IMG/VR virus record: IMGVR_UViG_3300034101_005796
Coordinates: 1-64,000 of that record
DNA from: a virus
DNA: 64,000 nt
Direction: 5' to 3' (one strand)
In this document: positions 11,376-48,378 of the stretch, piece by piece
Position numbering within the stretch: position 1 is the stretch's first letter
How the letters are laid out: each line of letters starts with the position of its first letter
Notes under the pieces: model-generated
What the model was told of the DNA's origin: nothing
Database searches by the model: none
What the model saw: only the letters and a program-made list of their open reading frames with translations
Program-made: the position numbers and the translations under genes

Positions 11376-14300
11376 CTATTCGAGAGTTTCCCCCGCTTGC
11401 GTTCTGGCCCATTGCGCCATCTCCTGCTCCCTGTTGTTCATCTGCTGCAAGAAGTCCTTCTGCTGCTTGGCGATTTCCTGCAACTTTTTGATTTCAGCAG
11501 AGGGATCATTCACCAAACCTCCGAAGCCCGCCGCGCCGCCAACGCTCGCTAAGTCGGACATCCTCGGTTGCTTAGTTTCCTCGATGTTCTTGGCCGCACG
11601 CTCCATGTCCACCTGGAATCCCGCTAAACTTTTAGCGTTGGCAGCGTTCTCCTCGGGCGAGAGATTGGGGTTGCTTACCGTCTTCCCGATTTCGCGAGCT
11701 CGCTCCTCCTTGAGTGCTTCATCTTCCAGCGCATCAGCCGCTTCTTTGGCGCCGCGACGATCCGTGCCGAAGTTTTCCTGCACCCGCAAGGCTTGGATCT
11801 GAGCCTGCCGATTCATGTCCGATACCACCTTGGCCTGACTTTCCTGTGCTGCCACCTGCTCGGCTTGAATCTCGTCTGCACTTCGGCCACCCCCGCCCAC
11901 CGCCGCCAACTGCACCTCCGCCGCGCGGACGGCGGCTTGGGCTTGTTGCGCCTGCTCCTTGTTGCCCGGCGCCACGTTCGCCGCCGCTTCCCTTGCCTCC
12001 TCCAACTCCTTCAAGGCATCTGCCCTAAACTGTAAACGCCATTCTTGATTGGCCTTGGATTGCAGATCAATAAGCGCCGCATCCAAAGCTTCCACATCTT
12101 CCAAGCCCGTCATCTCAAGGGCGACTTCCACAATGCGCTGTTCATCCTCCGTCGCGGTCCCTGCCAACACCTTGTCGACCTTGGGCCGAAGCTCGTTTTG
12201 AATCACTTCCGGATCTTCTGTCTTCAAATTCAAATCGACGGCAGCGTCCGCTGTGGCCTTTTGAGCTTGTTCCAAATCGCGCTGCGCTTCATTGGCCGTT
12301 AGGTTCGGCTTCTCCTCCAAATAGTCCTCGGCTCGGACTTCGGCGTTTTTCACCCGCTCCTGCGCCTCGTCAAACGCCGCCGCATTACCCTCCTTCACCG
12401 GCGCCGCCGCCACTTTCTGCGCTCGTTCCAAAGCCTGTGCCGCCTTGAGTTGCGCCTGCAACTCCTCCTGTGCCACTTGCGCGCCGGTTTTTTTCAGCTG
12501 CGCGATCATCGTTTCGTTGCGCAGTCTTTGCATGGAGAACTCCGCTTCCGCTTCGGCTACCGCTTGCCCTTGCAACAGATTGGCATTGGATTCATCGGTT
12601 TGTATGGCGCGCGGCAAATTGGATTTTTCCAAGCCCTCATCACGGCGGAATTCCAACTGTTGAATAGCCGCGCCGCTCGTCTGCTCTGCTCCGCCGATGG
12701 AATTGGTTAGCTCAATGACCGCGTTGAGCAACGCCTGCGCCGCCGTGCGCTGGTCGGCCGATGGCCCGCCTTCCTCATTTGCTTGCCGGATACCGTCTTG
12801 ATTGCTGTCGATAAATTCATCGGGACCAGCGGTATTGGCCAGCACTTTGGTCGCTTCTGTCTCGGCATCGCGAAGCAACTGCCGCTGCGCGATTTGCGCA
12901 CTCGTCCTCGTAACGTCATTATCATCCGTCGGCGCCTTACGCTCGATCTCCTGCAACGCCGCAAACGCCGCGCGCAAAGAGTCCGTTTGCCCCGCCGCTC
13001 CGGCTTGTGTCCTTTGATTGATTAAATCCTGCCGCTCTTGTTCTGCTTGTCGTATTTGTTGATCAGTAACACCTCGCCCGCCCGCCGCAATGGCACTTTG
13101 CACATCGCCAAAACTGCGGGCGCTGCCAGATTGTTCCTCTTTTTGGCCGCGCAATGCTCTTAGCTGTTCATCTTTTTGGGCTATCGCGGCGTCTAACTCC
13201 TTCTGGCTTGAAGAAGCCCCAAACTCCGGCCTTTCAGTCTTCACCTCCGCGATCGCGCGGCGCCCAGTGTCTATTTTCTGGCTGGCTTTTTCGGCATCTT
13301 GCCGCTTCTTTGCGCTATCATCCTTGAGAACCTGCAAAGCCTCCTTGCTTCCCGCCCCCATCTGCGCCGCCGCCAAGCGCGCATCTTCCGCAATTTCCCT
13401 CTCCAGTTTGGCCCGCTCGCGCGCCTCCTGCGTGCGCTTCGCATCCAGCGCCAGCGCCGCTTGATTGATCGAAAGAATTTGCTGCGCGAAGCCTTGAATC
13501 TGCGTCAGGCCACTTTCCGCATCACTCACCCCTTGCTCGGCCGCCGCCAACACATCTTCCCGCCGTTGGCCCTCGATACCGAACGTAACGTCCGGCGCCG
13601 CCATGCCGCGCGTTCCATCCGGATTGATCCCGTAGTATTTGTCGCGATCTTGCCGCGCGGTGTCGCGCCGCTGCTTCGCATCCGCCAGATTTTTCTGGGC
13701 CGCCGCGACGGCTTCTTTTGCGGAACTTTTGGCCTTGTCCAAATCCTCCGGCGTCTGCACCGCTGCGGCGGAACTCGCCAATGATCCCGCCGTTTGTCCT
13801 GTTTGGGCGCGCGATTGCTGCAACTCTCTGTTGAGAGATGCCACTTGCTGTCGCGCTTGAATCGCCTTGGTCGCCAACATCACCAATCCTGACGCCACCA
13901 GCACCAAGCCTCCACTCAAGCCGGTCATCAGCCCTGCCCAGGCGCGCGCCGTGCCCATCATGCCCACCATCGCCGCCTGTGCCACGCGCGTTTGGATAAT
14001 AAAGCCGATGATCGCCTTGCTCGCGCCCAACAGCGAAACAGCCAGAATCGTGAGCACCGCCGCCGCCACGGTGCCCAGTGCCTTGAAAACGCCCTGCACC
14101 ACCCCCATCTGGCCGACAGTCGCTAAGAAATTGCCGAGGGCTTCTTTGACCCCCTGCACACCGCTCATCATCACGGCCCAAGGACCGGCTGCCGCTTCTT
14201 GCAAGGCGGCGCCGAATTTCTGGAAACCAAGGGCCGCCCTCCCGCCCGCTTCATTGGCCTCCTTGAACATATCGCCAATTTTGGCATCACTGGCCATCTG

Positions 14301-14954
14301 CTGATTCGAGAGCTGTTGCTGCAGCCCCTCGACGGTAGAGGCCAATTCCTGCGCCGCACCTTTGGCTTTCGCTGTATCCGCCGCGAGGAGGCGCATGGCT
14401 TCACTGGCCGGAGCGCCCGATTGGGCCAGATCGGCGATCTTACGCGCCGTTTGATCCGAAATAGCTCCCATTTCCGCCAGCTGGTTGGCGGCCGTGGCCA
14501 CCCCGTCCCCGCCGCTTTTCAACGCCCCCGCCAATCCGCCCATCGCCCCCGCCACGGCATCGACCGGCGCCCCCGTCGCCGCGGCGACATCCTGCACCTG
14601 CTGCAACGCCGCCGTGGAATTGAAGGCGCCCTTCGAAAGCGCTTGCAGGTTCAAAGCCGCCTTGCCCAAAGCCTCAAAGGCAAAGGGACTGCGCTGCGCC
14701 TCGGCGGTCAACTCGGCAACTTTCTTTCGGGCGGCGTCGGCGCTGCCTAGCAGTGTTTTGAAAAGGGCCGTCAGCCTATTGGCCTCACCCGAAGCCTGCA
14801 AGGCTGCCTGCATTTTCTCCGCATTGAGCGCCGCCCCCGCCATCGCCTTCACAAAAGCCGTCGCGCCGATCGTCAGGGCCGCCATCGGCCCCACCGTGTC
14901 GTTCAACAGCTGCTTGATATTAAAGCCTCCTCGGGGTGGTGGATTTACCGCCAT
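11376..14954 (-). CDS. Tail length tape-measure protein
   Basis: 1192 residues, the second-longest helical gene here. The N-terminus has the typical tape-measure pattern (AEKMQAALQASGEANRLTAL, FKTLLGSADAARKKVAELT) and a hydrophobic stretch near residues 290-370 with three or four membrane-like segments. The rest is a long Ala/Glu/Gln/Lys-rich coiled coil to the C-terminus. It should span the tail lumen and set tail length, then help DNA pass the cell envelope. Start ATG 14954, right after the putative tail assembly chaperone. A long-tailed (sipho- or myo-type) virion is implied. Confidence 0.93.
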   Translation of the reverse strand: MAVNPPPRGGFNIKQLLNDTVGPMAALTIGATAFVKAMAGAALNAEKMQAALQASGEANRLTALFKTLLGSADAARKKVAELTAEAQRSPFAFEALGKAALNLQALSKGAFNSTAALQQVQDVAAATGAPVDAVAGAMGGLAGALKSGGDGVATAANQLAEMGAISDQTARKIADLAQSGAPASEAMRLLAADTAKAKGAAQELASTVEGLQQQLSNQQMASDAKIGDMFKEANEAGGRAALGFQKFGAALQEAAAGPWAVMMSGVQGVKEALGNFLATVGQMGVVQGVFKALGTVAAAVLTILAVSLLGASKAIIGFIIQTRVAQAAMVGMMGTARAWAGLMTGLSGGLVLVASGLVMLATKAIQARQQVASLNRELQQSRAQTGQTAGSLASSAAAVQTPEDLDKAKSSAKEAVAAAQKNLADAKQRRDTARQDRDKYYGINPDGTRGMAAPDVTFGIEGQRREDVLAAAEQGVSDAESGLTQIQGFAQQILSINQAALALDAKRTQEARERAKLEREIAEDARLAAAQMGAGSKEALQVLKDDSAKKRQDAEKASQKIDTGRRAIAEVKTERPEFGASSSQKELDAAIAQKDEQLRALRGQKEEQSGSARSFGDVQSAIAAGGRGVTDQQIRQAEQERQDLINQRTQAGAAGQTDSLRAAFAALQEIERKAPTDDNDVTRTSAQIAQRQLLRDAETEATKVLANTAGPDEFIDSNQDGIRQANEEGGPSADQRTAAQALLNAVIELTNSIGGAEQTSGAAIQQLEFRRDEGLEKSNLPRAIQTDESNANLLQGQAVAEAEAEFSMQRLRNETMIAQLKKTGAQVAQEELQAQLKAAQALERAQKVAAAPVKEGNAAAFDEAQERVKNAEVRAEDYLEEKPNLTANEAQRDLEQAQKATADAAVDLNLKTEDPEVIQNELRPKVDKVLAGTATEDEQRIVEVALEMTGLEDVEALDAALIDLQSKANQEWRLQFRADALKELEEAREAAANVAPGNKEQAQQAQAAVRAAEVQLAAVGGGGRSADEIQAEQVAAQESQAKVVSDMNRQAQIQALRVQENFGTDRRGAKEAADALEDEALKEERAREIGKTVSNPNLSPEENAANAKSLAGFQVDMERAAKNIEETKQPRMSDLASVGGAAGFGGLVNDPSAEIKKLQEIAKQQKDFLQQMNNREQEMAQWARTQAGETLE

Positions 14955-16132: not shown

Positions 16133-16411
16133 TTAAAATTCAAAGTCGATTGATTCGGTGGTTGTTTTTGTAGCGTCTTCGTTAGACATCTCTACCCGAG
16201 AGCGAATGGTGCTGGCATTCAAAGCTGACAGACCGCTCCCTAAGGTCGTGGTCGCCGTCGTCGTTTCAGCGCCGGAATAGATTACGTCCACCAAACTGCC
16301 GCCCTCCCCCACCACTTCAACTTCTGAGGAATACCTCTTGTTGATGGTTTCCCTTATCCCTTGATCCAGAAAATCTAGAGTTGCGCCGCGGCGAATCAGT
16401 GCTTGTGCCAT
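16133..16411 (-). CDS. Hypothetical virion protein
   Basis: 92 residues from ATG 16411. A TTGACA box, which includes the stop of the upstream GNAT gene, lies 15 nt before the start. After a helical N-terminus (LDFLDQGIRETINKRY) it is Thr/Ser-rich and beta-like, ending ESIDFEF. The 'SNED' motif near the C-terminus also occurs in the next gene. Function unknown. Confidence 0.62.
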   Translation of the reverse strand: MAQALIRRGATLDFLDQGIRETINKRYSSEVEVVGEGGSLVDVIYSGAETTTATTTLGSGLSALNASTIRSRVEMSNEDATKTTTESIDFEF

Positions 16412-17307: not shown

Positions 17308-18308
17308 GCTAAAACAATCGGCGCTGTGATCGTGCGACCTCTCTTCGAGTCGAAGAGAAAATATGTCTGCTGCGGCGGCTCATAGGAGGCCTTGATGCTG
17401 ATCGCGTAAGCATTGTAGCCGATCAGCGAGCCATTGCTCACCCACTTCGGATTCTGCTGTTGCGTGTGCCAGTGCCCGAAACAATCCAGATCCGCCACGC
17501 GTGCTTTGTTCCAAGAAGCAATCGCCTTCTCCGTCGGGATCGTCAGCCCGCCGATCCCGCCCTGATACTTCAGTCCGTCCCCATGGTGAAACCGCAACGT
17601 CTTGCCAAACAGCTCCACGTAATTGAAATACGAATCCGCCACCTGCCACTCCACCCCTTCCTGCATCCGCTGCGACATCACCTTGTAAAGCAACCACTCG
17701 TAGCTGTTACGAAACCCCGTGGCATGCCTCGGCTTCTTCGTCGTCCGCCCGTGGTTGCCGTAGCAACACGGGATCAGAACCCGCGCGAAATTTTGCCGCA
17801 AAGAGGCAATCCCCCGCGACACCCGCTCCATTACCCACAAAATCGTCTCCGTCGGACTCAGCGCATTTGTCTCCGCCAGTTCCTCGTGGATATACCCGCT
17901 CATCAAATCGCCGCCTAAAAACAGCACGCACGTGTCGATCTCCGCACCGTTGCGCTCGATCTCCGTCAGCCGCACCACACTGTTGAAAAACTTCTCGATC
18001 CGGGCCTCCGCCACGCGCAGGTCGAAATGATTCAGCCCATTGGTCGAATCCGCCGTCACTTGCTCTTCCACGTGCCAATCACTCGCCAAAGCCACCGCCA
18101 CCGCCTCGCACTTCGCCGTCTTCTTCACCGCCAACGGCTTCTGCGAAGGCTTCGCCGCATTCAACGCATCGACCACCCCCAGCTGCTCCTCTAATTCCTT
18201 GATCCGCTCCAGCCCGGCCGTAATCTGCCGCTTGTAATCCGACACCACACTGCGATGCGCGTGCTCCGCGCTCTCCCGCGCAATCGCTCCCCAGTTATCT
18301 TTGGGCAT
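17304..18308 (-). CDS. Calcineurin-like metallophosphoesterase
   Basis: 334 residues. The metallophosphoesterase signature is present in order: SDWH (D-x-H), GGDLMSG (GD), GNHGR (GNH), HHGD and GHWH (GHxH). It should bind two metal ions and hydrolyse phosphodiester or phosphomonoester bonds; many phage members act as nucleases. The first ~50 residues form a short coiled coil. Start ATG 18308 has a TTGACA box 13 nt upstream, itself half of an inverted repeat TGACAC-n7-GTGTCA. Unusual between connector and tail genes. Confidence 0.88.
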   Translation of the reverse strand: MPKDNWGAIARESAEHAHRSVVSDYKRQITAGLERIKELEEQLGVVDALNAAKPSQKPLAVKKTAKCEAVAVALASDWHVEEQVTADSTNGLNHFDLRVAEARIEKFFNSVVRLTEIERNGAEIDTCVLFLGGDLMSGYIHEELAETNALSPTETILWVMERVSRGIASLRQNFARVLIPCCYGNHGRTTKKPRHATGFRNSYEWLLYKVMSQRMQEGVEWQVADSYFNYVELFGKTLRFHHGDGLKYQGGIGGLTIPTEKAIASWNKARVADLDCFGHWHTQQQNPKWVSNGSLIGYNAYAISIKASYEPPQQTYFLFDSKRGRTITAPIVLA

Positions 18309-32439: not shown

Positions 32440-32783
32440 TGTGAATCTTGCGCCTCCACCGCCGCCTTGGCCTTGGCGATCATCTCGATCGGCGCCAACC
32501 CCTTCTCCATGTCGCACCACTCGCTCGGCTTCATCAGCCCGCTGGCCAGCGCGATCTTGCGCGCCGGGATATGTTTCGCCTTCCGCAGACGCTCCACCTC
32601 GCGTCCCGCCAAGACCCGATCGGCCTCCTCGCCAAACAGGCTTCCTTTCGTCGCACAACGCTTGCAGTCCTCCTCGGGGCGCACATAAACCCCGCTCTCG
32701 TCATTCTCTCCGTCCCAGAATCCCCATGAGGCGTGAATCACGCCCATCCCATCGCACTCCGGACACGTGGCCTGCTTGCTCAT
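32436..32783 (-). CDS. Zinc-finger protein with HTH-like C-terminus
   Basis: 115 residues from ATG 32783 (ATGA overlap). CPECDGMG near the start and CKRCATKG ~40 residues later form a four-cysteine zinc site like that of DnaJ. The C-terminal half (LASGLMKPSEWCDMEKGLAP) resembles an HTH_3 fold. Probably nucleic-acid binding. The longer open frame upstream is shadow. Confidence 0.6.
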   Translation of the reverse strand: MSKQATCPECDGMGVIHASWGFWDGENDESGVYVRPEEDCKRCATKGSLFGEEADRVLAGREVERLRKAKHIPARKIALASGLMKPSEWCDMEKGLAPIEMIAKAKAAVEAQDSQ

Positions 32784-33820
32784 AGATACTTCCGCACCTC
32801 CCGCACAATCCGCTCCGGTTCGATCTGCCCCAACGCCTCGCACTTGCCGGTGATCGAACACGGACCATCCGGCGGATACGGGCCGCCCCGTCCGTGCCAG
32901 TAGCACGGCGCGCAACGCAACACTCCCGTCAAAGCCCGCACTGTCGGCGCATACGCCGTGCGCGCCTGCCACGGGAACGGCCCGTAGAGAGCGATGGTCG
33001 GCAACCGCAACGCCCCCGCCAGATGCGCGATGGCGCTATCCGGCGCCAGCACCACCTCGCACTGCTCCAAGACCGCCGCCGATTGACCGAACAGATCGGC
33101 CTGTGACGCCACATTCAAAATCAACGGATGGTTCGCCTCCAACTGCACCGTCCCCGGCGCCCCGAACAACGCAATCTCCGTATCTCCCTTCTCCAGCAAT
33201 CGCCGGATCACCTCCACCAACAACTCCTTCGGATACGTCCGCGCGGGACTCGATGCCATCAACTGCACGCCGACCCGCTTGCCTTTCTTCGGAAACTCCA
33301 ACTCCGCCCACGCCCGATCTTCGTCCCGCACGGCAAAGCTGACCTCCTTGCCCTCGGTCAATTCCACCTTCGCCGCCTCGGCAAATAAATCCACCGCATG
33401 AATTTCCGGCTTTTCCGCAAACTCGATCACCCCCTCCAACCAGATTTCCCGATCATACGGCATGACCTCCGCCAACGGCATCGGATACGGGCGCCACTCC
33501 ACAGGAACCCCCGACAACGCCTCGCGGTATTTCGCATGACAGCACACCGTTACGTTCTTTCCCGCCGCCACCAACGTCCGCAAAAGCGGCGTCAAAAACA
33601 AAATGTCTCCAAACCCCCCACTGCGCGTTACCAAGACCGTCTCCGCGTCTTTCAAATCTCTCATCTCCAATTCCAAATCTCTGTCTCGCATCCGCCCGAC
33701 TAACCCCATCATCAGCAAATGCCCAAGGGTCGGATCCTCGACCACATAGGACTCCCCGCCCCGAAACTTCAGCCCGTGCGCCTCATAGTCCCGCAGCACT
33801 GTAACGATCCGACCATTCAT
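32780..33820 (-). CDS. GT9-family glycosyltransferase (ADP-heptose:LPS heptosyltransferase-like)
   Basis: 346 residues from ATG 33820 (ATGA overlap). GT-B fold with GT9 features: VTRSGGFGDILFLTPLLRTL at the start of the first Rossmann half, VGVQLMASSPARTYP in the middle, then LFGAPG and the sugar-nucleotide site VLAPDSAIAHLAGAL. These enzymes add heptose or related sugars to lipopolysaccharide. In a phage this may change the receptor (superinfection exclusion) or glycosylate virions. Confidence 0.85.
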   Translation of the reverse strand: MNGRIVTVLRDYEAHGLKFRGGESYVVEDPTLGHLLMMGLVGRMRDRDLELEMRDLKDAETVLVTRSGGFGDILFLTPLLRTLVAAGKNVTVCCHAKYREALSGVPVEWRPYPMPLAEVMPYDREIWLEGVIEFAEKPEIHAVDLFAEAAKVELTEGKEVSFAVRDEDRAWAELEFPKKGKRVGVQLMASSPARTYPKELLVEVIRRLLEKGDTEIALFGAPGTVQLEANHPLILNVASQADLFGQSAAVLEQCEVVLAPDSAIAHLAGALRLPTIALYGPFPWQARTAYAPTVRALTGVLRCAPCYWHGRGGPYPPDGPCSITGKCEALGQIEPERIVREVRKYL

Positions 33821-34059
33821 AGACGTTTGCTCCTCTGCCATACGTGAATCTGGCGCTCCGCGTTCTCTGAATACCCCAGATACCGCCCACTCCGGTCGGC
33901 ATCCACGACTACCGAACGCAACAACTCCGCCTCCCGCTCGGCATACGGCCCCGCCAGCATCGTATAACCCTGCCGCCGCAGTTCCTTCGGATCCTGCACC
34001 CGCAAATGCGTCCACAGCTTGTCGGCGGACGGCAAGGGTAGCTCTTTCGCAGGCGCCAT
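33817..34059 (-). CDS. Small hypothetical protein
   Basis: 80 residues from ATG 34059, which shares an A with the upstream TGA (TGATG). Mixed alpha/beta (KLWTHLRVQDPKELRRQGYT), no known domain. It is coupled to the GT9 gene, so may assist it. Confidence 0.55.
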   Translation of the reverse strand: MAPAKELPLPSADKLWTHLRVQDPKELRRQGYTMLAGPYAEREAELLRSVVVDADRSGRYLGYSENAERQIHVWQRSKRL

Positions 34060-36560: not shown

Positions 36561-37319
36561 ATGGCTAAAGCCACCAAGACCTCTCCGACCGCCGTTCTGC
36601 AGGCTTCGGAGATTCAATCCATGCAGCAGGAGCAGCGCGTCGAACTCTTTGTCCAACGTGACAACATCGTCCGCCGCGCGTTCTCCGAACTCGGCAAGCT
36701 CATGACATTCATCGCCCGGCACGTTGCCAAAGGCGAGACTGTCGAACAGGTCTTGTCCGCCGCCGGAGTCCACCGCTCCACGATCAGCAACGCGAAGTTC
36801 GCCGCCGATGCTTTCGCCTTCGTCGAAGACGGAACCATCTCGGAAGCGCGCTACGACACGCTGACGTTCACCGAGTGCCGCGCCATCCGCAAGTTCCGGT
36901 CGATGGACACACTCAAGGCTGTCCTCAAGGCCAAAAACTACCGCGAGGAACTTGAGTGCGTCGCCGACAATGGCTGCACGATCGCCGAGCACAAGCAGCG
37001 CGAAGCCGACAAGGCCGCGCTGATCGACAAGGCCAACTCCGCCGAGTCGACCACCGAGACCGCGACCGCCGAGACTCCAACCGAGTCCGGCAAAACCGAG
37101 AAGTCCGGCAAGAAGGGCAAAGCCGATGTTCCCGCGAACGTCGTCAAACTGCCCGCCGCCGAAGGCATCTCCCAAGCCGACCTTGTGTCCGCCGCGATGG
37201 CGCACATCAAAGGCTTGAACGAGATCCTGCCGCGACTCCAGGATGCCACGCCCGTCATGGATGCCCTGCGCTCCATCGTCGAAGGCACCGGCTCCAAAAA
37301 GGCCAAAAAAGCTGCCTAA
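36561..37319 (+). CDS. Putative DNA-binding protein with HTH
   Basis: 252 residues from ATG 36561 with a strong AGGAGGT site. Residues ~60-110 (GETVEQVLSAAGVHRSTISN, then a recognition-helix-like AKFAADAF) look like a helix-turn-helix. A low-complexity Thr/Glu/Lys linker follows, then a C-terminal helical segment ending KKAKKAA. It stands alone between two structured non-coding stretches, so it may act on them. Family unknown. Confidence 0.6.
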   Translation: MAKATKTSPTAVLQASEIQSMQQEQRVELFVQRDNIVRRAFSELGKLMTFIARHVAKGETVEQVLSAAGVHRSTISNAKFAADAFAFVEDGTISEARYDTLTFTECRAIRKFRSMDTLKAVLKAKNYREELECVADNGCTIAEHKQREADKAALIDKANSAESTTETATAETPTESGKTEKSGKKGKADVPANVVKLPAAEGISQADLVSAAMAHIKGLNEILPRLQDATPVMDALRSIVEGTGSKKAKKAA

Positions 37320-37345
37320 CCGCGCCGTCCACTACGCCGCGACCC

Positions 37346-37390
37346 GAGGCACGGGGGGAACGCCAACCCCCGTGCCTCCCACTTTTTTTC
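37346..37390 (+). terminator. Rho-independent terminator
   Basis: Stem GAGGCACGGGGG / CCCCCGTGCCTC (12 bp, 37346-37378), then CCACTTTTTTTC. It ends the gene at 36561-37319. Confidence 0.92.
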
Positions 37391-37682
37391 ACGGCGCCGT
37401 CCGTGATTTTCCCTTTCCTCGCTGAAAAGGTGGGACGCCACCAATATCGGAAGCCTCGTCGAACAAGCGCGCGCGTGTTCGGAGGATTACCCGACGAGGA
37501 ACACACTTTTGACACGGCTCCGTCCGTGGATTTCGCCGGTAACCCCGGCCACATTTCCTGCGTTCCACCATCTACGCAGAACAAATGTGCATGGGCCGCG
37601 CCAATCGGCGCGTTTGCACAGGGCCATCCTCCGGTGGGGGAGGATGGCCCACCTCTTTTGTCACCCCCGTCAGGCATTTCCC
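37391..37682 (+). ncRNA. Candidate structured non-coding RNA region
   Basis: No convincing gene. Packed inverted repeats: GGTGG-gacg-CCACC (37429-37442); CCTCGTCG / CGACGAGG with inner GAACA / TGTTC (37454-37499); GCCGG / CCGGC (37535-37549); TGCGT / ACGCA (37559-37578); TGTGCA / TGCACA enclosing CGCGCC-aatc-GGCGCG (37586-37620); GGGCCATCCTC / GAGGATGGCCC (37621-37650). A tail ACGGC(G/T)CCGTCCGTG follows two hairpins (37391, 37514). Either one long structured RNA or several short terminator-ended RNAs. Confidence 0.5.
37621..37660 (+). terminator. Terminator-like hairpin
   Basis: GGGCCATCCTC-ccggtggg-GAGGATGGCCC (11 bp), then ACCTCTTTTGTC. The T-tract is short. It ends the hairpin string before the TTGT leader. 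Confidence 0.65.
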
Positions 37683-37683
37683 C

Positions 37684-37749
37684 GACTTTTGTAAGTCCGT
37701 TTGTTCTCGCGGGCTTATCTCCACGTAGAGAACGCAACCATCCAACACT
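37684..37749 (+). promoter_or_regulatory. TTGT-hairpin leader, copy A
   Basis: GACTT-TTGT-AAGTC (37684-37697), then GTTCTC / GAGAAC (37703-37708 with 37728-37733). The loop of the second hairpin contains GGGCTTAT, able to pair with GTAAGTCC of the first. The same layout with changed stem bases occurs at 39872-39925. No Shine-Dalgarno sequence precedes the ATG. Confidence 0.65.
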
Positions 37750-37950
37750 ATGAGCAAACACTCGTTCCTCACTTCGTCACTCACTCCCCAAGTGCTTGTC
37801 GAAGGCCAGCCCGTGTCGGCCAAAGCCATGCAGTATTCCACGGGTTCCGTCGGCTACAACCTCAACGGCAAAATCACTCTGCCCAACGGCATCCGCCTCC
37901 AAGTCTCCGGCAATGCCGTCGTTATCGGCAGCAAGGAGTGGTCGGCCTGA
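37750..37950 (+). CDS. Small hypothetical protein
   Basis: 66 residues. Beta-type sequence with a hydrophobic core (GYNLNGKITLPNGIRLQVSG). The start is fixed by the leader layout shared with the gene at 39940; neither has a ribosome-binding site. It has its own terminator. Function unknown. Confidence 0.65.
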   Translation: MSKHSFLTSSLTPQVLVEGQPVSAKAMQYSTGSVGYNLNGKITLPNGIRLQVSGNAVVIGSKEWSA

Positions 37951-37956
37951 TCTTGC

Positions 37957-38015
37957 GGGACGGGGCGGCGCGCTGAAGCGCGAATAATACCAACGCCCCG
38001 TCCCCTCCTCTTTTT
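37957..38015 (+). terminator. Two-tier terminator
   Basis: Outer stem GGGACGGGGCG / CGCCCCGTCCC (37957-37967 with 37994-38004) encloses a small GCGC-TGAA-GCGC hairpin and is followed by CTCCTCTTTTT. The next small gene starts on the very next base. Confidence 0.88.
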
Positions 38016-38117
38016 ATGAAACCCATCCGTATCGTCCTGCACGTGGCCGTCTTGCTAATCAAGCCGAGCACGTGGAAATTCCAGCTCGCGGGCATTTACC
38101 GCGAGTTTCACCCGTGA
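38016..38117 (+). CDS. Possible 33-residue peptide
   Basis: ATG 38016 directly after the terminator T-run, to TGA 38117, which overlaps the next GTG start (GTGA). Hydrophobic-basic start MKPIRIVLHVAVLLIK. It is the first member of a chain of tiny overlapping genes; the overlap supports it, the lack of a ribosome-binding site does not. Confidence 0.4.
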   Translation: MKPIRIVLHVAVLLIKPSTWKFQLAGIYREFHP

Positions 38118-38287
38118 CGGCCATACCCGTCCGGATTCCCTCACCCTCGGTCTTCACGCTTCGCCGCGTGTTGAACGAGCGGATCTGCCACCTTTGGCCC
38201 GTGCGCCATAGCCGCGACCGCAACAAGCGCGACTATGCCCGGGAAACCATCCGCCAGTTTGTCGGAATCATCCGCCAACTGTCCTGA
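38114..38287 (+). CDS. Small basic hypothetical protein
   Basis: 57 residues from GTG 38114 (GTGA overlap). Arg-rich, ending YARETIRQFVGIIRQL. A longer frame upstream would run into the terminator and is rejected. Unknown function. Confidence 0.45.
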   Translation: MTAIPVRIPSPSVFTLRRVLNERICHLWPVRHSRDRNKRDYARETIRQFVGIIRQLS

Positions 38288-38322
38288 TTCATCCGCCAAC
38301 AACCCAAAATCACCCGCTAACT

Positions 38323-38460
38323 ATGAAATTCCGTCCCTACAACCTCGCCCGTCTCGTCACCGCCAAAGCCCTGCGCCCCCTGCCCAAGTCCGAGCGCAAG
38401 CGCCGTCCCTACCGCCCCCTCACGTGGCAACCCTTCCGTATCCTGCTCGTAGGTATATGA
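38323..38460 (+). CDS. Small basic hypothetical protein
   Basis: 45 residues, ATG 38323 to TGA 38460, overlapping the next start as ATGA. Highly basic (KSERKRRPYRP). Unknown function; the overlap is the main support. Confidence 0.5.
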   Translation: MKFRPYNLARLVTAKALRPLPKSERKRRPYRPLTWQPFRILLVGI

Positions 38461-38690
38461 AATACGAATTCTGCAGCACCGCCATCGGCTACTGGACGCG
38501 CACGCGCACCATCGAAGCCGAATCGCTCGATGAAGCGCGCCGCAAACTCGACCATGATGATGAGACAGTCGAATACGAAGACGACTTGGAATCAGCCGAA
38601 TGCACCAGCGAGCAACTGACCGCCATCTGTGCCGATGGAAAAACGCACTTCATCGGACACGAGGGCAACGTAGTCGCCACCATTCCATGA
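38457..38690 (+). CDS. Small acidic hypothetical protein
   Basis: 77 residues. An N-terminal half like the common 'feature length' phage proteins (EFCSTAIGYWTRTRTIEAES, then LDEARRKL), then an acidic stretch (DHDDETVEYEDDLESAE). Coupled by ATGA at both ends. Unknown function, possibly an inhibitor of a host protein. Confidence 0.65.
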   Translation: MKYEFCSTAIGYWTRTRTIEAESLDEARRKLDHDDETVEYEDDLESAECTSEQLTAICADGKTHFIGHEGNVVATIP

Positions 38691-38866
38691 AACGCGTTCT
38701 GCCCCCCGCGCCTTTCGTGCGCAACAGCCACGGCGACAATCTCTGGCCTGCCGAAGTCTATATGCGCCTCTGGGCGCCACCGGAGCCGCGGCGCCTCAAC
38801 GCCTTCCAGCGTTGGCTCCGGCGCCGCCGCATCAGCCGTCTGAGATTTCAAATTTCAAATCCATGA
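38687..38866 (+). CDS. Small basic hypothetical protein
   Basis: 59 residues, ATGA overlaps on both sides. Arg-rich C-terminus (FQRWLRRRRISRLRFQISN). Unknown function. Confidence 0.55.
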   Translation: MKRVLPPAPFVRNSHGDNLWPAEVYMRLWAPPEPRRLNAFQRWLRRRRISRLRFQISNP

Positions 38867-39219
38867 CAACATTCACCGACATCGAAGTAGTCAAAGACAA
38901 CATTCGGCTCGTGTGGGAACACATCGGCGAAGGGTGGAACGGCGACTACAATGCCGAAGATCCCAATGACAAGCCTCTCCTGCGCTTCTCAATCGACTGG
39001 CGCAACAACGGCGATTGGGAAGGACTCGATGATGCTTCTTACTGCACGGGGCTACCCACCGACACCAGTCCCACCACGCTGCGCGAGTATGCCGATAGCA
39101 TCATAGCCAGCTTGAGCAGCACCAAAGAACAACCAACCGGACACAAACGCACCTTGGAGCGTTGGTCTTGGGTTGGGATTGAGGATGCCAACCTCCCCCA
39201 AGCCACCAACAACTCATGA
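38863..39219 (+). CDS. Hypothetical protein
   Basis: 118 residues, ATGA overlaps on both sides. A conserved-looking centre EGWNGDYNAEDPNDKPLLRF suggests a compact acidic fold. No catalytic motif. Unknown function. Confidence 0.68.
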   Translation: MTTFTDIEVVKDNIRLVWEHIGEGWNGDYNAEDPNDKPLLRFSIDWRNNGDWEGLDDASYCTGLPTDTSPTTLREYADSIIASLSSTKEQPTGHKRTLERWSWVGIEDANLPQATNNS

Positions 39220-39467
39220 CCTGCCCTTCCTGCGCTCGCCGCATGGAGCAAGGCCGCGCCGACCTCGGCTTGGCCCTGTGCCTCTCCTGCGCCCAAACCC
39301 GCCCCGTCACCCGCTATCGCGGCGCCATGATCTACGGACACAAGACTGCCGGTGCCGTCTGCCTCATGTCGCCTGACGAATTTTCCCGCTACAAAAAACT
39401 CACCAACCGAAAAGGACAATCCAGCGTCCTGCGCAACGTGCTGGTCGCCGCCGGACGCGCCTTATGA
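39216..39467 (+). CDS. Zinc-ribbon protein
   Basis: 83 residues. CPSCARRM and CLSCAQTR, ~20 residues apart, form a four-cysteine zinc ribbon at the N-terminus. The C-terminal half is basic (YKKLTNRKGQSSVLRN). Probably binds nucleic acid or a polymerase. ATGA overlap upstream. Confidence 0.68.
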   Translation: MTCPSCARRMEQGRADLGLALCLSCAQTRPVTRYRGAMIYGHKTAGAVCLMSPDEFSRYKKLTNRKGQSSVLRNVLVAAGRAL

Positions 39468-39471
39468 ATTT

Positions 39472-39630
39472 ATGGAAAACGCAACCCAAAAGCTATTGAG
39501 CGAGCTATACGCTGCCCTCTCCGTGATCGTCTTGACCAAAGGCATCCGACATTTCCTTCAGGAACACGATCCCAAAGCGTGGCAGCAGTGCAACAAGGCG
39601 CGCAACGCCTACTTGACCCGCCACCAATGA
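39472..39630 (+). CDS. Small helical hypothetical protein
   Basis: 52 residues from ATG 39472; ends overlapping the next start as ATGA. All helical (LLSELYAALSVIVLTKGIRH). Unknown function. Confidence 0.58.
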   Translation: MENATQKLLSELYAALSVIVLTKGIRHFLQEHDPKAWQQCNKARNAYLTRHQ

Positions 39631-39848
39631 AAGTCACCCGCGCCATCCGCGACAGCCTGCTCGCCATCGTGGACGATCAGCCGATCTCCCTCAGAGCGCC
39701 GTCCCGCTTTTTCACCATCAAGCGCCTGCAATTCGCCTTGGACTACCAAGGTTATTACGCCGGTTGCCGCTACCGCTATTACCCCGACCTCTTGCCCTCC
39801 GGCCAATTCCGTGGCTGGCGCCTCCAAGAACGGGTTTTCGGTAAGTAG
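39627..39848 (+). CDS. Small hypothetical protein
   Basis: 73 residues, ATGA overlap upstream. Tyr/Arg-rich second half (YQGYYAGCRYRYYPDLLPSG). Last gene before a TTGT leader. Unknown function. Confidence 0.6.
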   Translation: MKVTRAIRDSLLAIVDDQPISLRAPSRFFTIKRLQFALDYQGYYAGCRYRYYPDLLPSGQFRGWRLQERVFGK

Positions 39849-39871
39849 TCACCCGCTCCAGATCCAGCCCC

Positions 39872-39939
39872 GACTTTTGTAAGTCCGCTCGCGTTCGCGG
39901 CTTACCCCGTTGTTTTCCGAACGCGCTTTCCACAAACAC
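39872..39939 (+). promoter_or_regulatory. TTGT-hairpin leader, copy B
   Basis: GACTT-TTGT-AAGTC (39872-39885), then an 8-bp hairpin CGCGTTCG / CGAACGCG (39890-39897 with 39918-39925) whose loop has GGCTTAC, complementary to GTAAG.CC of the first hairpin. It lines up with copy A base for base apart from compensated stem changes. No Shine-Dalgarno before ATG 39940. Confidence 0.65.
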
Positions 39940-40815
39940 ATGATCGACACCATCGCCTCAAAGGTGCTCGTCGTTAAGCCGACCATTTCCATGGTGGGCA
40001 AATCCGTAACTGACGAGAATATCACCACCGAAGTGCAGTCCGAGCACAGCATCGGACGCGACGGCGGCGCTTGGGTAAAGAAGCTCTACCCGTCCAAAGA
40101 CGGCAAGCCTTCGCCCCTCGCCGCCATCCAAAGTATCGTCACCCAAGCCCGCAAGTTCCACGGGATGCAGACATTGCGCTCCTCCTTCGGCGACTTGCTG
40201 CCCTCCGTGGCCTACTCCGACTACAACGCCCGCATGGAGGACTACCGCCGCAAGTTCGACGACGAAGCCGACTACTTTGCCGTCCGCTTCCCGCAGATCC
40301 TCGCCGAGTGCGCCGAAGTGCTCAACGGCACCTTCGACCGCGCCAACTACCCAAGCGAACACAACGTCCGCTCACGCTTCAGCTTCTCCTTGGCCACCGC
40401 GCCGCTGCCCCGCAGCTCGGACATGCTGGTGAAATACCTCGGCCAAGAGCAAACCGCCGCCGTCCAGGCTAACCTCGCCCGTCAGGTTGAGATCGCCGCC
40501 CAAAACGGCGTCAAACAGGCCATGGAACGCGTGCTTACACAGGTCGCCCACATCACCGATGTCCTGACTCGTCCCAGCACGAAAATCTACGACAGCCTCA
40601 TCGAAAACCTCGCGGAACTGCTCAAGCTCGTTCCGGCCTTTAACCTGACCAACGACCCGACCCTTGCCAGCCTCGTCCATCGCTGCCAATCCGACTTGCT
40701 CGTTGCCCCCGACATCCTCCGCGAAAGCGCCGTCAACCGCAATATCATCGCCAACAAAGGCAAAATCATCGCCGACACCTTCGGCGGTCTTGGCAACCGC
40801 AAGCTCGCGGCATGA
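39940..40815 (+). CDS. DUF3150-like hypothetical protein
   Basis: 291 residues from ATG 39940; a TTG start at 39910 would cut into the leader stem and is not chosen. Helical protein of roughly the length of DUF3150 proteins, which often sit near AAA ATPase genes in phages. Here the Ycf35/Ycf46 module follows directly. The C-terminal part (NRNIIANKGKIIADTFGGLG) is conserved-looking. Assignment by layout, not by a decisive motif. Confidence 0.6.
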   Translation: MIDTIASKVLVVKPTISMVGKSVTDENITTEVQSEHSIGRDGGAWVKKLYPSKDGKPSPLAAIQSIVTQARKFHGMQTLRSSFGDLLPSVAYSDYNARMEDYRRKFDDEADYFAVRFPQILAECAEVLNGTFDRANYPSEHNVRSRFSFSLATAPLPRSSDMLVKYLGQEQTAAVQANLARQVEIAAQNGVKQAMERVLTQVAHITDVLTRPSTKIYDSLIENLAELLKLVPAFNLTNDPTLASLVHRCQSDLLVAPDILRESAVNRNIIANKGKIIADTFGGLGNRKLAA

Positions 40816-42261: not shown

Positions 42262-42455
42262 CGCTCTCCTTCATTGCCGCCAACCCGCATCGCCATCCGG
42301 CGCTGCTGTTCCCTAAACGCTACAGCCAACGCATCTACGAATTGATGCACATCTACAACTGCGATCACTCCGACGCCGAAGGTATCGCCATCGTTGAATA
42401 CTGCGAACTCGGCCACATACCCAAACCACAAACCGATGAAATCCCGTATCATTAA
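42258..42455 (+). CDS. Small hypothetical protein
   Basis: 65 residues, ATGA upstream; overlaps the ATPase start by 20 bases. Helical (YSQRIYELMHIYNCDHSDAE). Unknown function. Confidence 0.58.
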   Translation: MTLSFIAANPHRHPALLFPKRYSQRIYELMHIYNCDHSDAEGIAIVEYCELGHIPKPQTDEIPYH

Positions 42456-43935
42456 CTACCTCAAAGCCGGATACCCCGGCCTCGCCTTGCAATCGCACGA
42501 AGAGCATCGCTGCCAAGCCATGCTCCGCTCCGTGGCCGACGAACTCGGCTACAACCTCCATTCGTGGAGCATCACCACCGGACGCACCGATGTCACGACC
42601 GGCGCCGGATTCGGCGAGGACGGCAATCCCGTCGAAGTCCTCGACGGCATCATAGCAGCACCGGAGAAAACCCTCTGCATCCTCAACGACTACCACCACT
42701 TCCTCGACCAGCCCAATCCGGTCATCTTTCGCAAGCTGAAGGAAGTGCTCTGGCACGCCAAAGCCTCGCAGAAATCCATCCTGCTCCTCGCCCCGACCAT
42801 AAAACTCCCGCCCGATCTGGAGAAGATGATGGTGTTGCTCGATTTCGAGCTTCCCTCCAAGGACGAGCTGACCAGCGTGATCGACAGCTTATGTAAGTCG
42901 AACGAACGCCCCCTACCCGATCCCGATACGCTCGGCAAGGTGCTCGATGCGCTCTCCGGCCTCACTACGAACGAGGCGGAGGATGCTCTCGCCCTCGCCA
43001 TCATCGAAACCGGCACCTTCGATACCGGCATCATCACCCGCGAGAAAGCCAACGCCGTGAAGAAGAATGGCCTGCTGGAAATCATCGCATCCAAGCTGAC
43101 CCTCGATGACATCGGCGGCCTCGATGTCCTCAAGACCGACCTTCTGAGCAAGCGTAACCTCTTCACTCCTCAAGCCCGCGACTACGGCCTCGACAGCCCG
43201 CGCGGCTTTCTTGCCGTAGGCCAAGCAGGCACCGGCAAATCGCTCACCGCCCAAGCCTGCGGCAGCATCTTCGGCATCCCGCTCCTGCGTCTCGATGCCA
43301 GTAACATCTTCGCTTCCCATGTCGGCGAATCCGAGCGCAACTGGCGCACCGCCTTCGCCACCGCCCGCGCCGTTGCTCCCTGCGTGTTCTGGATCGACGA
43401 AGTGGATGGCCTCACCTCCGGCGCGAAGTCCTCCGGCGAAACCGATGGCGGCACGACCAACCGCGTCTTCAAATCCATCCTGCAAGACATGCAATACAAC
43501 GCCCAGGGGATCTTCTTCGTCTTCACCGCCAACGACATTGACGCCATTCCCGATCCGCTCATCGACCGCCTCGACGTTTGGGCCGTTGACTTGCCCAATA
43601 CCGCCGAACGCCAAGCCATCTGGCGCATCCACATCGCCAAACGCAAACGCGAACCCGACACCTTCGACCTCGCCCAGCTCGCCGACCAGACCGAAGGCTT
43701 CAGCGGTCGCCAGATCGAGCAAGCGTGGCTCAAGGCCATGACCCTCGCCTTCAACGACCAGCGCGAACCCGAAACCTCCGACTGTCTCGCCGCCCTGACC
43801 AAGATCACCCCGACCAGCCTCACCATGGCCGACCAGATCGAAACCCGCCGCCGCCGTCTCGCCGGTAAAGCGACCAACGCTTCCACCCCCACCGCCAACA
43901 CCAAAACCAACAACATCCGCAAACTCGCCGCATGA
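42436..43935 (+). CDS. Ycf46-type AAA+ ATPase
   Basis: 499 residues from ATG 42436; the upstream in-frame start lies inside the previous gene. The N-terminal ~230 residues match the Ycf46 domain (YLKAGYPGLALQSHEEHRCQ, ILNDYHHFL, RKLKEVLWHAKASQKSILLL). The AAA+ core has Walker A GQAGTGKS, Walker B CVFWIDEVD, a TAND sensor-1 and a DPLIDRLD arginine-finger region. Likely an oligomeric remodelling ATPase working with the DUF1257/DUF2997 proteins. Ycf46 is known from plastids, cyanobacteria and phages. Confidence 0.9.
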   Translation: MKSRIINYLKAGYPGLALQSHEEHRCQAMLRSVADELGYNLHSWSITTGRTDVTTGAGFGEDGNPVEVLDGIIAAPEKTLCILNDYHHFLDQPNPVIFRKLKEVLWHAKASQKSILLLAPTIKLPPDLEKMMVLLDFELPSKDELTSVIDSLCKSNERPLPDPDTLGKVLDALSGLTTNEAEDALALAIIETGTFDTGIITREKANAVKKNGLLEIIASKLTLDDIGGLDVLKTDLLSKRNLFTPQARDYGLDSPRGFLAVGQAGTGKSLTAQACGSIFGIPLLRLDASNIFASHVGESERNWRTAFATARAVAPCVFWIDEVDGLTSGAKSSGETDGGTTNRVFKSILQDMQYNAQGIFFVFTANDIDAIPDPLIDRLDVWAVDLPNTAERQAIWRIHIAKRKREPDTFDLAQLADQTEGFSGRQIEQAWLKAMTLAFNDQREPETSDCLAALTKITPTSLTMADQIETRRRRLAGKATNASTPTANTKTNNIRKLAA

Positions 43936-45790: not shown

Positions 45791-46041
45791 GAACGATCAA
45801 ATTCAATACCTTCCACCCCGACATGAGCGACCGCATGGCCGAAACGGCGGCGCTGGTTGCTTTGGGTAGAATCAACAAGGAGATCGCCGATGAGATGGGA
45901 GTCAGCATCAAGACCGTGCAGAAGTTCCGCGAAATGATCAATTACCGCTTTGGCACCCGCAACACGGCAGACATAACGCGCCTCGCCATTTGGCTTGGTA
46001 TCATCAATTTGGATGAAGCCGACGATCCGCGTTGGCATTGA
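45787..46041 (+). CDS. Small LuxR-type helix-turn-helix protein
   Basis: 84 residues if TTG 45787 is used (TTGA overlap); ATG 45823 is an alternative. VALGRINKEIADEMGVSIKT, then VQKFREMINYRFG, is a GerE/LuxR-type helix-turn-helix without a receiver domain. A likely transcription regulator. Confidence 0.68.
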   Translation: MRTIKFNTFHPDMSDRMAETAALVALGRINKEIADEMGVSIKTVQKFREMINYRFGTRNTADITRLAIWLGIINLDEADDPRWH

Positions 46042-46849
46042 AGGCGCGCGCCCGGTTGTCCTTGCCGAAATACGGCGGCGCAATACGCCGGTCTTGGTCA
46101 GCGCCAATAGCTTGTGGAATGACCGCAGCCGCCAATGGCGGCAAACGTGGCGGGCCTATGCCGATCTGGATGTCGCGCTGGACTCCGGCGGATTTGTCGC
46201 CATGCACCGCTACGGGCGATTCCGGTGGACCGCAGAGCAATACGCGCATCTTGCCGCCGCCATGCAGCCGACATGGTGGGCGCAAATGGACTTTTGCTGC
46301 GAACCTGAGATTGCCAGCTCGCGTTCACAGGTGTTTGAGCGTATCGACCGAACAGCGCAGGCTTTGCACCAGTGCCGTCAAGCGGCGGTCATGCATGGAG
46401 CACAATCTCCATTGGTCGTTCTGCAGGGTTGGCATCCATCCGACTATGTTAGTGGCCCTGCGTTCGACGATCCTTCTTTCGTCTGGCCCTCTCTGGTCGG
46501 TGTGGGAAGCGTATGCCGCCGCGCGTTGCATGGAGCGTCTGGCTTGCTCGCCGTGATTGGTGCGATTGATCGGGCCTTGCCGGACTATGTGCGTTTGCAC
46601 TTCTTTGGCGTAAAAGGCGCGGCGCTGTCCTATCTGCGCGACCATCCTCGTTTTGCCTCAATGGACTCGATGGCATGGAGCATGGCGGCGCGCTGGGATG
46701 CCCTCAAGCGCAAGCGTTCTTGCGATGCCCATTGGCGAGCCATGCATCTTCGGCAATGGCTCGAACGGCAACATCAGCTTTCCCATTCCACACAACTCCA
46801 ACTACCTCTATGCAACAAGAAATCCGCGTCCAACTTGACGTTTCCGTGA
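46013..46849 (+). CDS. DpdA-like 7-deazaguanine transglycosylase (TGT-like)
   Basis: 278 residues from ATG 46013. The TGT hallmark LDSGGF is present, followed by AQMDFCCEPEIA, VVLQGWHPSDY, GVGSVCRR, LHFFGVKGAAL and DSMAWSMAAR. This is the pattern of phage DpdA-type proteins, which swap guanine in DNA for a 7-deazaguanine base and so block restriction enzymes. No preQ0-synthesis gene is seen in the window, so the base would have to come from the host. Whether it acts on DNA or tRNA is not shown by sequence alone. Confidence 0.82.
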   Translation: MKPTIRVGIEGARPVVLAEIRRRNTPVLVSANSLWNDRSRQWRQTWRAYADLDVALDSGGFVAMHRYGRFRWTAEQYAHLAAAMQPTWWAQMDFCCEPEIASSRSQVFERIDRTAQALHQCRQAAVMHGAQSPLVVLQGWHPSDYVSGPAFDDPSFVWPSLVGVGSVCRRALHGASGLLAVIGAIDRALPDYVRLHFFGVKGAALSYLRDHPRFASMDSMAWSMAARWDALKRKRSCDAHWRAMHLRQWLERQHQLSHSTQLQLPLCNKKSASNLTFP

Positions 46850-48054: not shown

Positions 48055-48378
48055 TTACTCGGCGGCTACATCCACATCGTTAGCCGACACCGTGAAATTG
48101 AAGGTAAACGACGTAGCAAATTCGTTGTTCGTCGGATTGATCGCACCAATGGTCCGACTGACGGTCATGCGAGACGGACGATTCGCCGCCGGAATCGCAG
48201 TGAAGGTTGTGTGAAACCGGTGAAGGAGCGCGTAAATGAATTTGCGACTATCGCCCGTTACTTCGTCGGCCTCCGCCGCCGTCAGTTCGGGAAACGCCGC
48301 AATCGGAATCGAAAGTGTCGTGCCATTTTCCGAGTAACTAGTTCCGAAAAATACCGTTGGTGCAGGATTGAAAGCCAT
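48055..48378 (-). CDS. Isolated minus-strand gene, possible late/virion protein
   Basis: 107 residues from ATG 48378 behind AAAAGGGAAGAGG and a TTGACA box 13 nt upstream, the same box seen before late genes. It is alone on the minus strand inside the plus-strand early block and has its own terminator. The segment AFPELTAAEADEVTGDSRKF and a beta-rich C-half ending FTFNFTVSANDVDV suggest a small structural protein. Looks like a separately controlled 'moron'-type gene. Family not named. Confidence 0.65.
   Translation of the reverse strand: MAFNPAPTVFFGTSYSENGTTLSIPIAAFPELTAAEADEVTGDSRKFIYALLHRFHTTFTAIPAANRPSRMTVSRTIGAINPTNNEFATSFTFNFTVSANDVDVAAE

Follow-up and report, generated by a model that had tools for sequence, protein, structure and literature searches.

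Leaders and genes at the locus

The window, which is the whole stretch of 64,000 nucleotides analysed, belongs to a phage contig in IMG/VR that is 66,892 bases long and encodes portal, terminase and primase. GACTTTTGTAAGTC is present twice in the window, at 37684-37697 and 39872-39885, and CCGACTTTTGTAAGTCCG is also found in two copies, compared with 0.05 expected. An earlier reading made from the letters only (the sequence-only reading) had described homologous leaders upstream of two genes, and both were found at the positions it gave. The parts of the two leaders and the genes behind them are as follows, where S1 and S2 are the two helices of a pseudoknot and P1 is a 5' hairpin.

37684-37690, + strand: leader 1, 5' pyrimidine-rich tract GACTTTT; GACTT is the 5' arm of P1, with its partner AAGTC at 37693-37697
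37691-37699, + strand: leader 1, S1 5' strand, GTAAGTCCG
37703-37708, + strand: leader 1, S2 5' strand, GTTCTC
37710-37718, + strand: leader 1, S1 3' strand, CGGGCTTAT
37728-37733, + strand: leader 1, S2 3' strand, GAGAAC
37734-37749, + strand: leader 1, linker up to the AUG, 16 nt, G-poor, without Shine-Dalgarno sequence
37750-37950, + strand: p66, a 66-amino-acid ORF with no Pfam, PHROG or NCBIfam match
39872-39878, + strand: leader 2, 5' tract GACTTTT with the 5' arm of P1
39879-39887, + strand: leader 2, S1 5' strand, GTAAGTCCG
39890-39897, + strand: leader 2, S2 5' strand, CGCGTTCG
39898-39905, + strand: leader 2, S1 3' strand, CGGCTTAC
39918-39925, + strand: leader 2, S2 3' strand, CGAACGCG
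39926-39939, + strand: leader 2, linker up to the AUG, 14 nt, G-free, without Shine-Dalgarno sequence
39940-40815, + strand: p291, a 291-amino-acid protein, remote relative of DUF3150

S1 of leader 1 consists of nine pairs (37691-37699 with 37710-37718), two of which are G-U. The nine pairs that the sequence-only reading had counted in each leader are thus correct for leader 1 and slightly generous for leader 2, whose S1 has eight pairs and one bulge (39879-39887 with 39898-39905). CGGCTTAC of leader 2 has one base fewer than CGGACTTAC of its counterpart G003b in a related contig, and the rest of both leaders is identical. The second hairpin of that reading, said to have different bases and the same pairing in the two leaders, has its arms at the sites given and is the S2 of our list.

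Distant relatives of p291 match PF11348, and one of them adjoins ATP-binding and VWA genes. An AAA ATPase gene (phrog_8638; 42436-43935, + strand) lies downstream of the DUF3150-like p291 gene. The region from 37300 to 40000 of the window shows no sigma-70-like promoter.

Just upstream of leader 1, about 75 nt (37586-37660) comprise a TGTGCATGGGCCGCGCC..GGCGCGTTTGCACA hairpin followed by a terminator-like hairpin of 12 pairs with the tail ACCTCTTTT. Between the window phage and the related contigs G006 and G007 this stretch shows strong conservation, although the identity of the flanking proteins is just about 40%; in the terminator-like stem the sequence changes while the pairing is kept. It is possibly a small RNA or an attenuator. 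Elsewhere in these phages, about 10 genes in each have a TTGAC that starts 19-22 nt upstream of the ATG (10, 11, 10, 11 and 10 in the window, G002, G003, G006 and G007), where other distances predict about 2; genes of the window with this motif include 13832-14951, 16135-16402, 17309-18302 and 48057-48378, all on the - strand. At this distance from the ATG the motif is too near for a normal -35 box; it is perhaps an initiation signal of the host. The window also has a DpdA-like (queuine tRNA-ribosyltransferase-like) gene at 46013-46849 (+ strand), suggesting by its resemblance 7-deazaguanine DNA modification, and a glycosyltransferase family 9 (heptosyltransferase-like) gene at 32780-34015 (- strand).

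Pseudoknot geometry and covariation in related phages

An exact scan of IMG/VR for CCGACTTTTGTAAGTCCG returned three contigs, G001, G002 and G003, and the second leader of G002 is a one-mismatch copy of the same sequence. The small protein encoded behind the G001 leader has relatives that led to two further contigs, G006 and G007. Their leader has a wholly different S1, and reads GCCGCACGG-ATC-GTGTTCG-CCGTGCGGC-CTCAACTGACAAC-CGAACAC-AGGAG-N9-ATG. When 556 kb were scanned by geometry only, the known leaders were recovered and a second copy was found de novo in each of G006 and G007, namely GCAACGCGA-TCG-GTGTTCG-TCGCGTTGC-...-CGAACAC and GCAACGTGG-CC-GGTGTTC-A-CCGCGTTGC-...-GAACACC. The total is 11 leaders, 10 of them distinct, in six phages (the window phage and five related IMG/VR contigs); every phage has two except G001, whose contig is truncated and has one. 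A stricter geometry scan, which also required an ATG 10-19 nt downstream, covered 365 kb of these phages, where it picked up 10 of the 11 leaders, and 1.59 Mb of unrelated sequence, where it gave 4 chance matches. The leader left out was the bulged leader 2 of the window.

The sequence-only reading had raised a possible pseudoknot between the loop of the second hairpin and the first, and this proved to be a classic H-type pseudoknot in all 11 leaders and the conserved core of the element. In all 10 distinct leaders S1 has 9-10 bp, L1 2-3 nt, S2 6-8 bp, L2 0-1 nt and L3 8-13 nt, so that the helices are interleaved, L1 is short, 0-1 nt separates the helices and L3 is long enough for S1. In every leader, 14-18 nt separate the end of the pseudoknot from the AUG. 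Every S1 and S2 position pairs across the leaders, with the bulge in leader 2 of the window as the sole exception. In the distant relatives nearly the whole of S1 is changed and full pairing is kept; the sequence of S1 is nearly free. In G002a one base is inserted in each S1 strand, and the two insertions compensate to form a 10-pair helix. Two elements are constant: the GUUC/GAAC core of S2 (10/10 leaders) and CTTTY immediately 5' of S1, which is common to all leaders and is preceded by GA only in the subgroup of the window.

Eight leaders could be compared column by column. In these, 97.6% of the cells pair, and a slide of one column in either direction reduces this to about a third. Changes on both sides occur in 11 of the 16 pairs (7/9 in S1 and 4/7 in S2), although the six contigs are related and the changes are therefore not all independent events. 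The covariation score was 0.563 compared with 0.227 ± 0.036 in shuffles, and none of the 500 shuffles reached it. This comparison across related leaders also supports the covariation claimed for the second hairpin. Dinucleotide shuffling of everything 3' of the first strand produced an unbulged pseudoknot of the same geometry at most once per 20,000 shuffles for each leader. Owing to its bulge, leader 2 itself fails this test; the near-identical G003b passes. Nested folding energies are unremarkable (z of -1.0 and -1.5 for the two leaders of the window), and the case therefore rests on comparison. By a rough Dirks-Pierce-like estimate that leaves out coaxial stacking, the pseudoknot is worth -12.8 to -23.4 kcal/mol. 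The same rough estimate places it ahead of the best nested fold in 7 of 9 leaders, but not in the two of the window. Judged by comparison, the pseudoknot is real and under selection, with letters that differ and pairing that is the same in five related phages.

Outside this group, IMG/VR pattern scans beyond the kin contigs gave mostly chance matches. A GTDB scan with the hairpin pattern found nothing, and one with the S2 pattern gave 45 matches, none with an S1 partner of more than 6 pairs and none credible. The candidate L233 has an S1 of 9 pairs and was not counted, as it reads as one long hairpin ahead of a 26-amino-acid ORF. Searches of GenBank phages with p291, p58 and the leader DNA were all negative. 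Covariance models cannot represent the two helices of a pseudoknot together, and ordinary folding tools are blind to pseudoknots. Translation-controlling pseudoknots are few in bacteria and phages and easily missed; here nested folding gave nothing, while geometry and comparison revealed a clear family.

Genes behind the element and its possible action

Leader 1 sits before p66 in the window, G002 and G003 and before a different small protein, p58, in G001, G006 and G007. Leader 2 sits before p291 in the window, G002 and G003 and before p212 in G006 and G007. The p291 gene of G006 begins about 12 nt past the preceding gene and has no leader, and none is found at the p212 junction in the window, G002 and G003; the module is therefore optional. 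It is portable, and stands directly before start codons at different genes in different phages. Profile comparison of p66 and p58 detected no homology, and the model of p58, predicted to be four-stranded beta, has no confident match to a known fold; autoregulation by a product common to both is therefore not evident. Small proteins like p58 (SGKTLVVATSGGN..GLNAYI), likewise predicted to be four-stranded beta, occur in 26 IMG/VR contigs (L172-L197).

Copy 2 is intercistronic, its S1 beginning 11, 30, 30, 30 or 82 nt past the preceding stop codon. Because of this position and the constant spacing to the AUG, action on translation initiation is favoured. The invariant GUUC/GAAC core and the CUUUY tract suggest, from sequence conservation, a specific partner. 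We tentatively propose, with slightly less than even confidence, that the leaders are translational operators whose pseudoknot is read by a common, probably phage-encoded RNA-binding factor. The leader RNA would form an H-type pseudoknot whose end lies 14-18 nt before the AUG, at the upstream edge of the 30S site, and would serve as a portable cis-acting site for translation initiation of the gene behind it. The factor would recognise the pseudoknot together with the S2 core and the 5' CUUUY tract and would govern how ribosomes load on both target genes, in the manner of T4 gp32 and its leader pseudoknot. We infer that the element acts on translation, that a factor binds it and that the effect is to repress and not to activate.

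In the subgroup of the window, the weak 5' hairpin P1 (GACTT/AAGTC) competes with S1, could pre-empt it, and may slow folding. The two-state switch of the sequence-only reading is possible in this subgroup only and did not hold as a general feature. P1 has five pairs that show no variation in seven leaders, and thus offers no covariation evidence; it is worth just -1.4 to -3.7 kcal/mol; and it has no counterpart in G006 and G007, where CTTTCC alone is kept 5' of S1. What is conserved of GACTTTT may be a pyrimidine tract and not one arm of a hairpin. We also considered that one state might mask the AUG, and this was not seen: in most leaders the predicted openness of -12 to +12 hardly differs between occupied and free stems, and since nested and pseudoknotted states leave the AUG alike, simple masking is unlikely.

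The leaders could instead be activating docking (standby) elements that recruit the 30S subunit and protein S1 beside an unstructured start without Shine-Dalgarno sequence, with P1 as an early inactive fold. We consider this doubtful, and it has precedents: the tisB pseudoknot is needed for binding of 30S and protein S1 (PMC7708055), and timP switches into an active pseudoknot (PMC11228461; PMC11295053). The linker is indeed G-poor and without Shine-Dalgarno sequence in 9 of the 10 distinct leaders, including, as had been noted, those of both window genes, and AGGAG is present only in the G006a/G007a type. That type retains the pseudoknot despite its AGGAG. A Shine-Dalgarno sequence is likewise missing from the majority of the other early genes in these phages, and these have no pseudoknot. 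Shine-Dalgarno-like matches are not enriched in the phage (13 of 37 conserved genes compared with 11.7 in shuffles), so their absence at these two genes is ordinary, and the step of the sequence-only reading from this absence to a structure that drives initiation is weak. The clade-specific S2 core also suggests a specific partner, and P1, the proposed inactive fold, is missing from G006 and G007. On sequence evidence we judge a protein-read operator most likely and a docking element for 30S and protein S1 second.

An RNase barrier or processing signal, which would fix the lifetime of the downstream part of a polycistronic mRNA, is improbable. It would suit a stable structure with a nearly free S1 sequence and the intercistronic position of copy 2, but would need neither the tight 14-18 nt spacing to the AUG nor the invariant S2 core. 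The put RNAs of phage HK022 are antiterminators that modify RNA polymerase. By analogy, put-like RNAs might be suggested by the two copies in each genome, which in the subgroup of the window have two hairpins apiece, and by the terminator-like hairpin just upstream of copy 1; with a constant AUG spacing, a copy 2 that lies 11-82 nt past a stop codon, and a conserved fold that is a pseudoknot and not two hairpins, we regard this as very improbable. DNA operator palindromes bound by a repressor, with incidental RNA pairing, were rejected as the least probable reading: the S1 and S2 strands are inverted repeats in DNA and GACTT...AAGTC is palindromic, but the two copies of G006 differ in S1, each perfectly self-complementary, so that one protein would hardly read both, and the interleaved arms match the exact geometry of a pseudoknot.

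If the leaders serve as a shared operator, they define a small post-transcriptional regulon of this phage, and the regulator could be sought directly. The wider picture, a transplantable pseudoknot operator with a nearly free S1 that defines a two-gene post-transcriptional regulon in the phage clade, is read by a putative phage RNA-binding protein and has moved between genes in evolution, is possible though rather unlikely. The leader set is also a clean natural series for the effect of a pseudoknot near the 30S footprint on initiation without Shine-Dalgarno sequence.

Comparison with known translational pseudoknots

The operator of E. coli rpsO alternates between two hairpins and a pseudoknot; the pseudoknot covers the ribosome binding site, and S15 binds the pseudoknot. 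In it, as cited in PMC11295053, a leader pseudoknot controls initiation, which resembles what we propose here; the leaders match no Rfam 15 family at gathering score.

Like tisB, the leaders combine a 5' UTR pseudoknot with a single-stranded stretch (PMC7708055). However, the tisB standby site is about 100 nt upstream of a sequestered ribosome binding site on a processed mRNA, whereas the start here is near and is not sequestered. The mutually exclusive folds of timP, one of them a pseudoknot (PMC11228461), resemble P1 and S1 in the leaders of the window. The timP mRNA has a sequestered ribosome binding site and an antitoxin sRNA, and nothing equivalent was seen in our phages; the distant relatives have no P1, and no conserved competing fold that alters access to the start site was found.

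The closest phage precedent in kind is gene 32 of T4 and RB69, where, as here, a translational pseudoknot in the mRNA leader lies 5' of a less structured stretch with the start site (PMC535899). The T4 pseudoknot of about 28 nt is followed by a stretch of more than 40 nt with UUAAA repeats, in contrast to the 14-18 nt found here. Unlike T4 gene 32, the element occurs twice in a genome, and nothing resembling an SSB is evident among the products behind it, p66 being unassigned, p291 DUF3150-like and p58 a four-stranded beta protein without confident fold match. Translational pseudoknots are a kind already known, and the element is a new, clade-restricted example of them, not previously catalogued.
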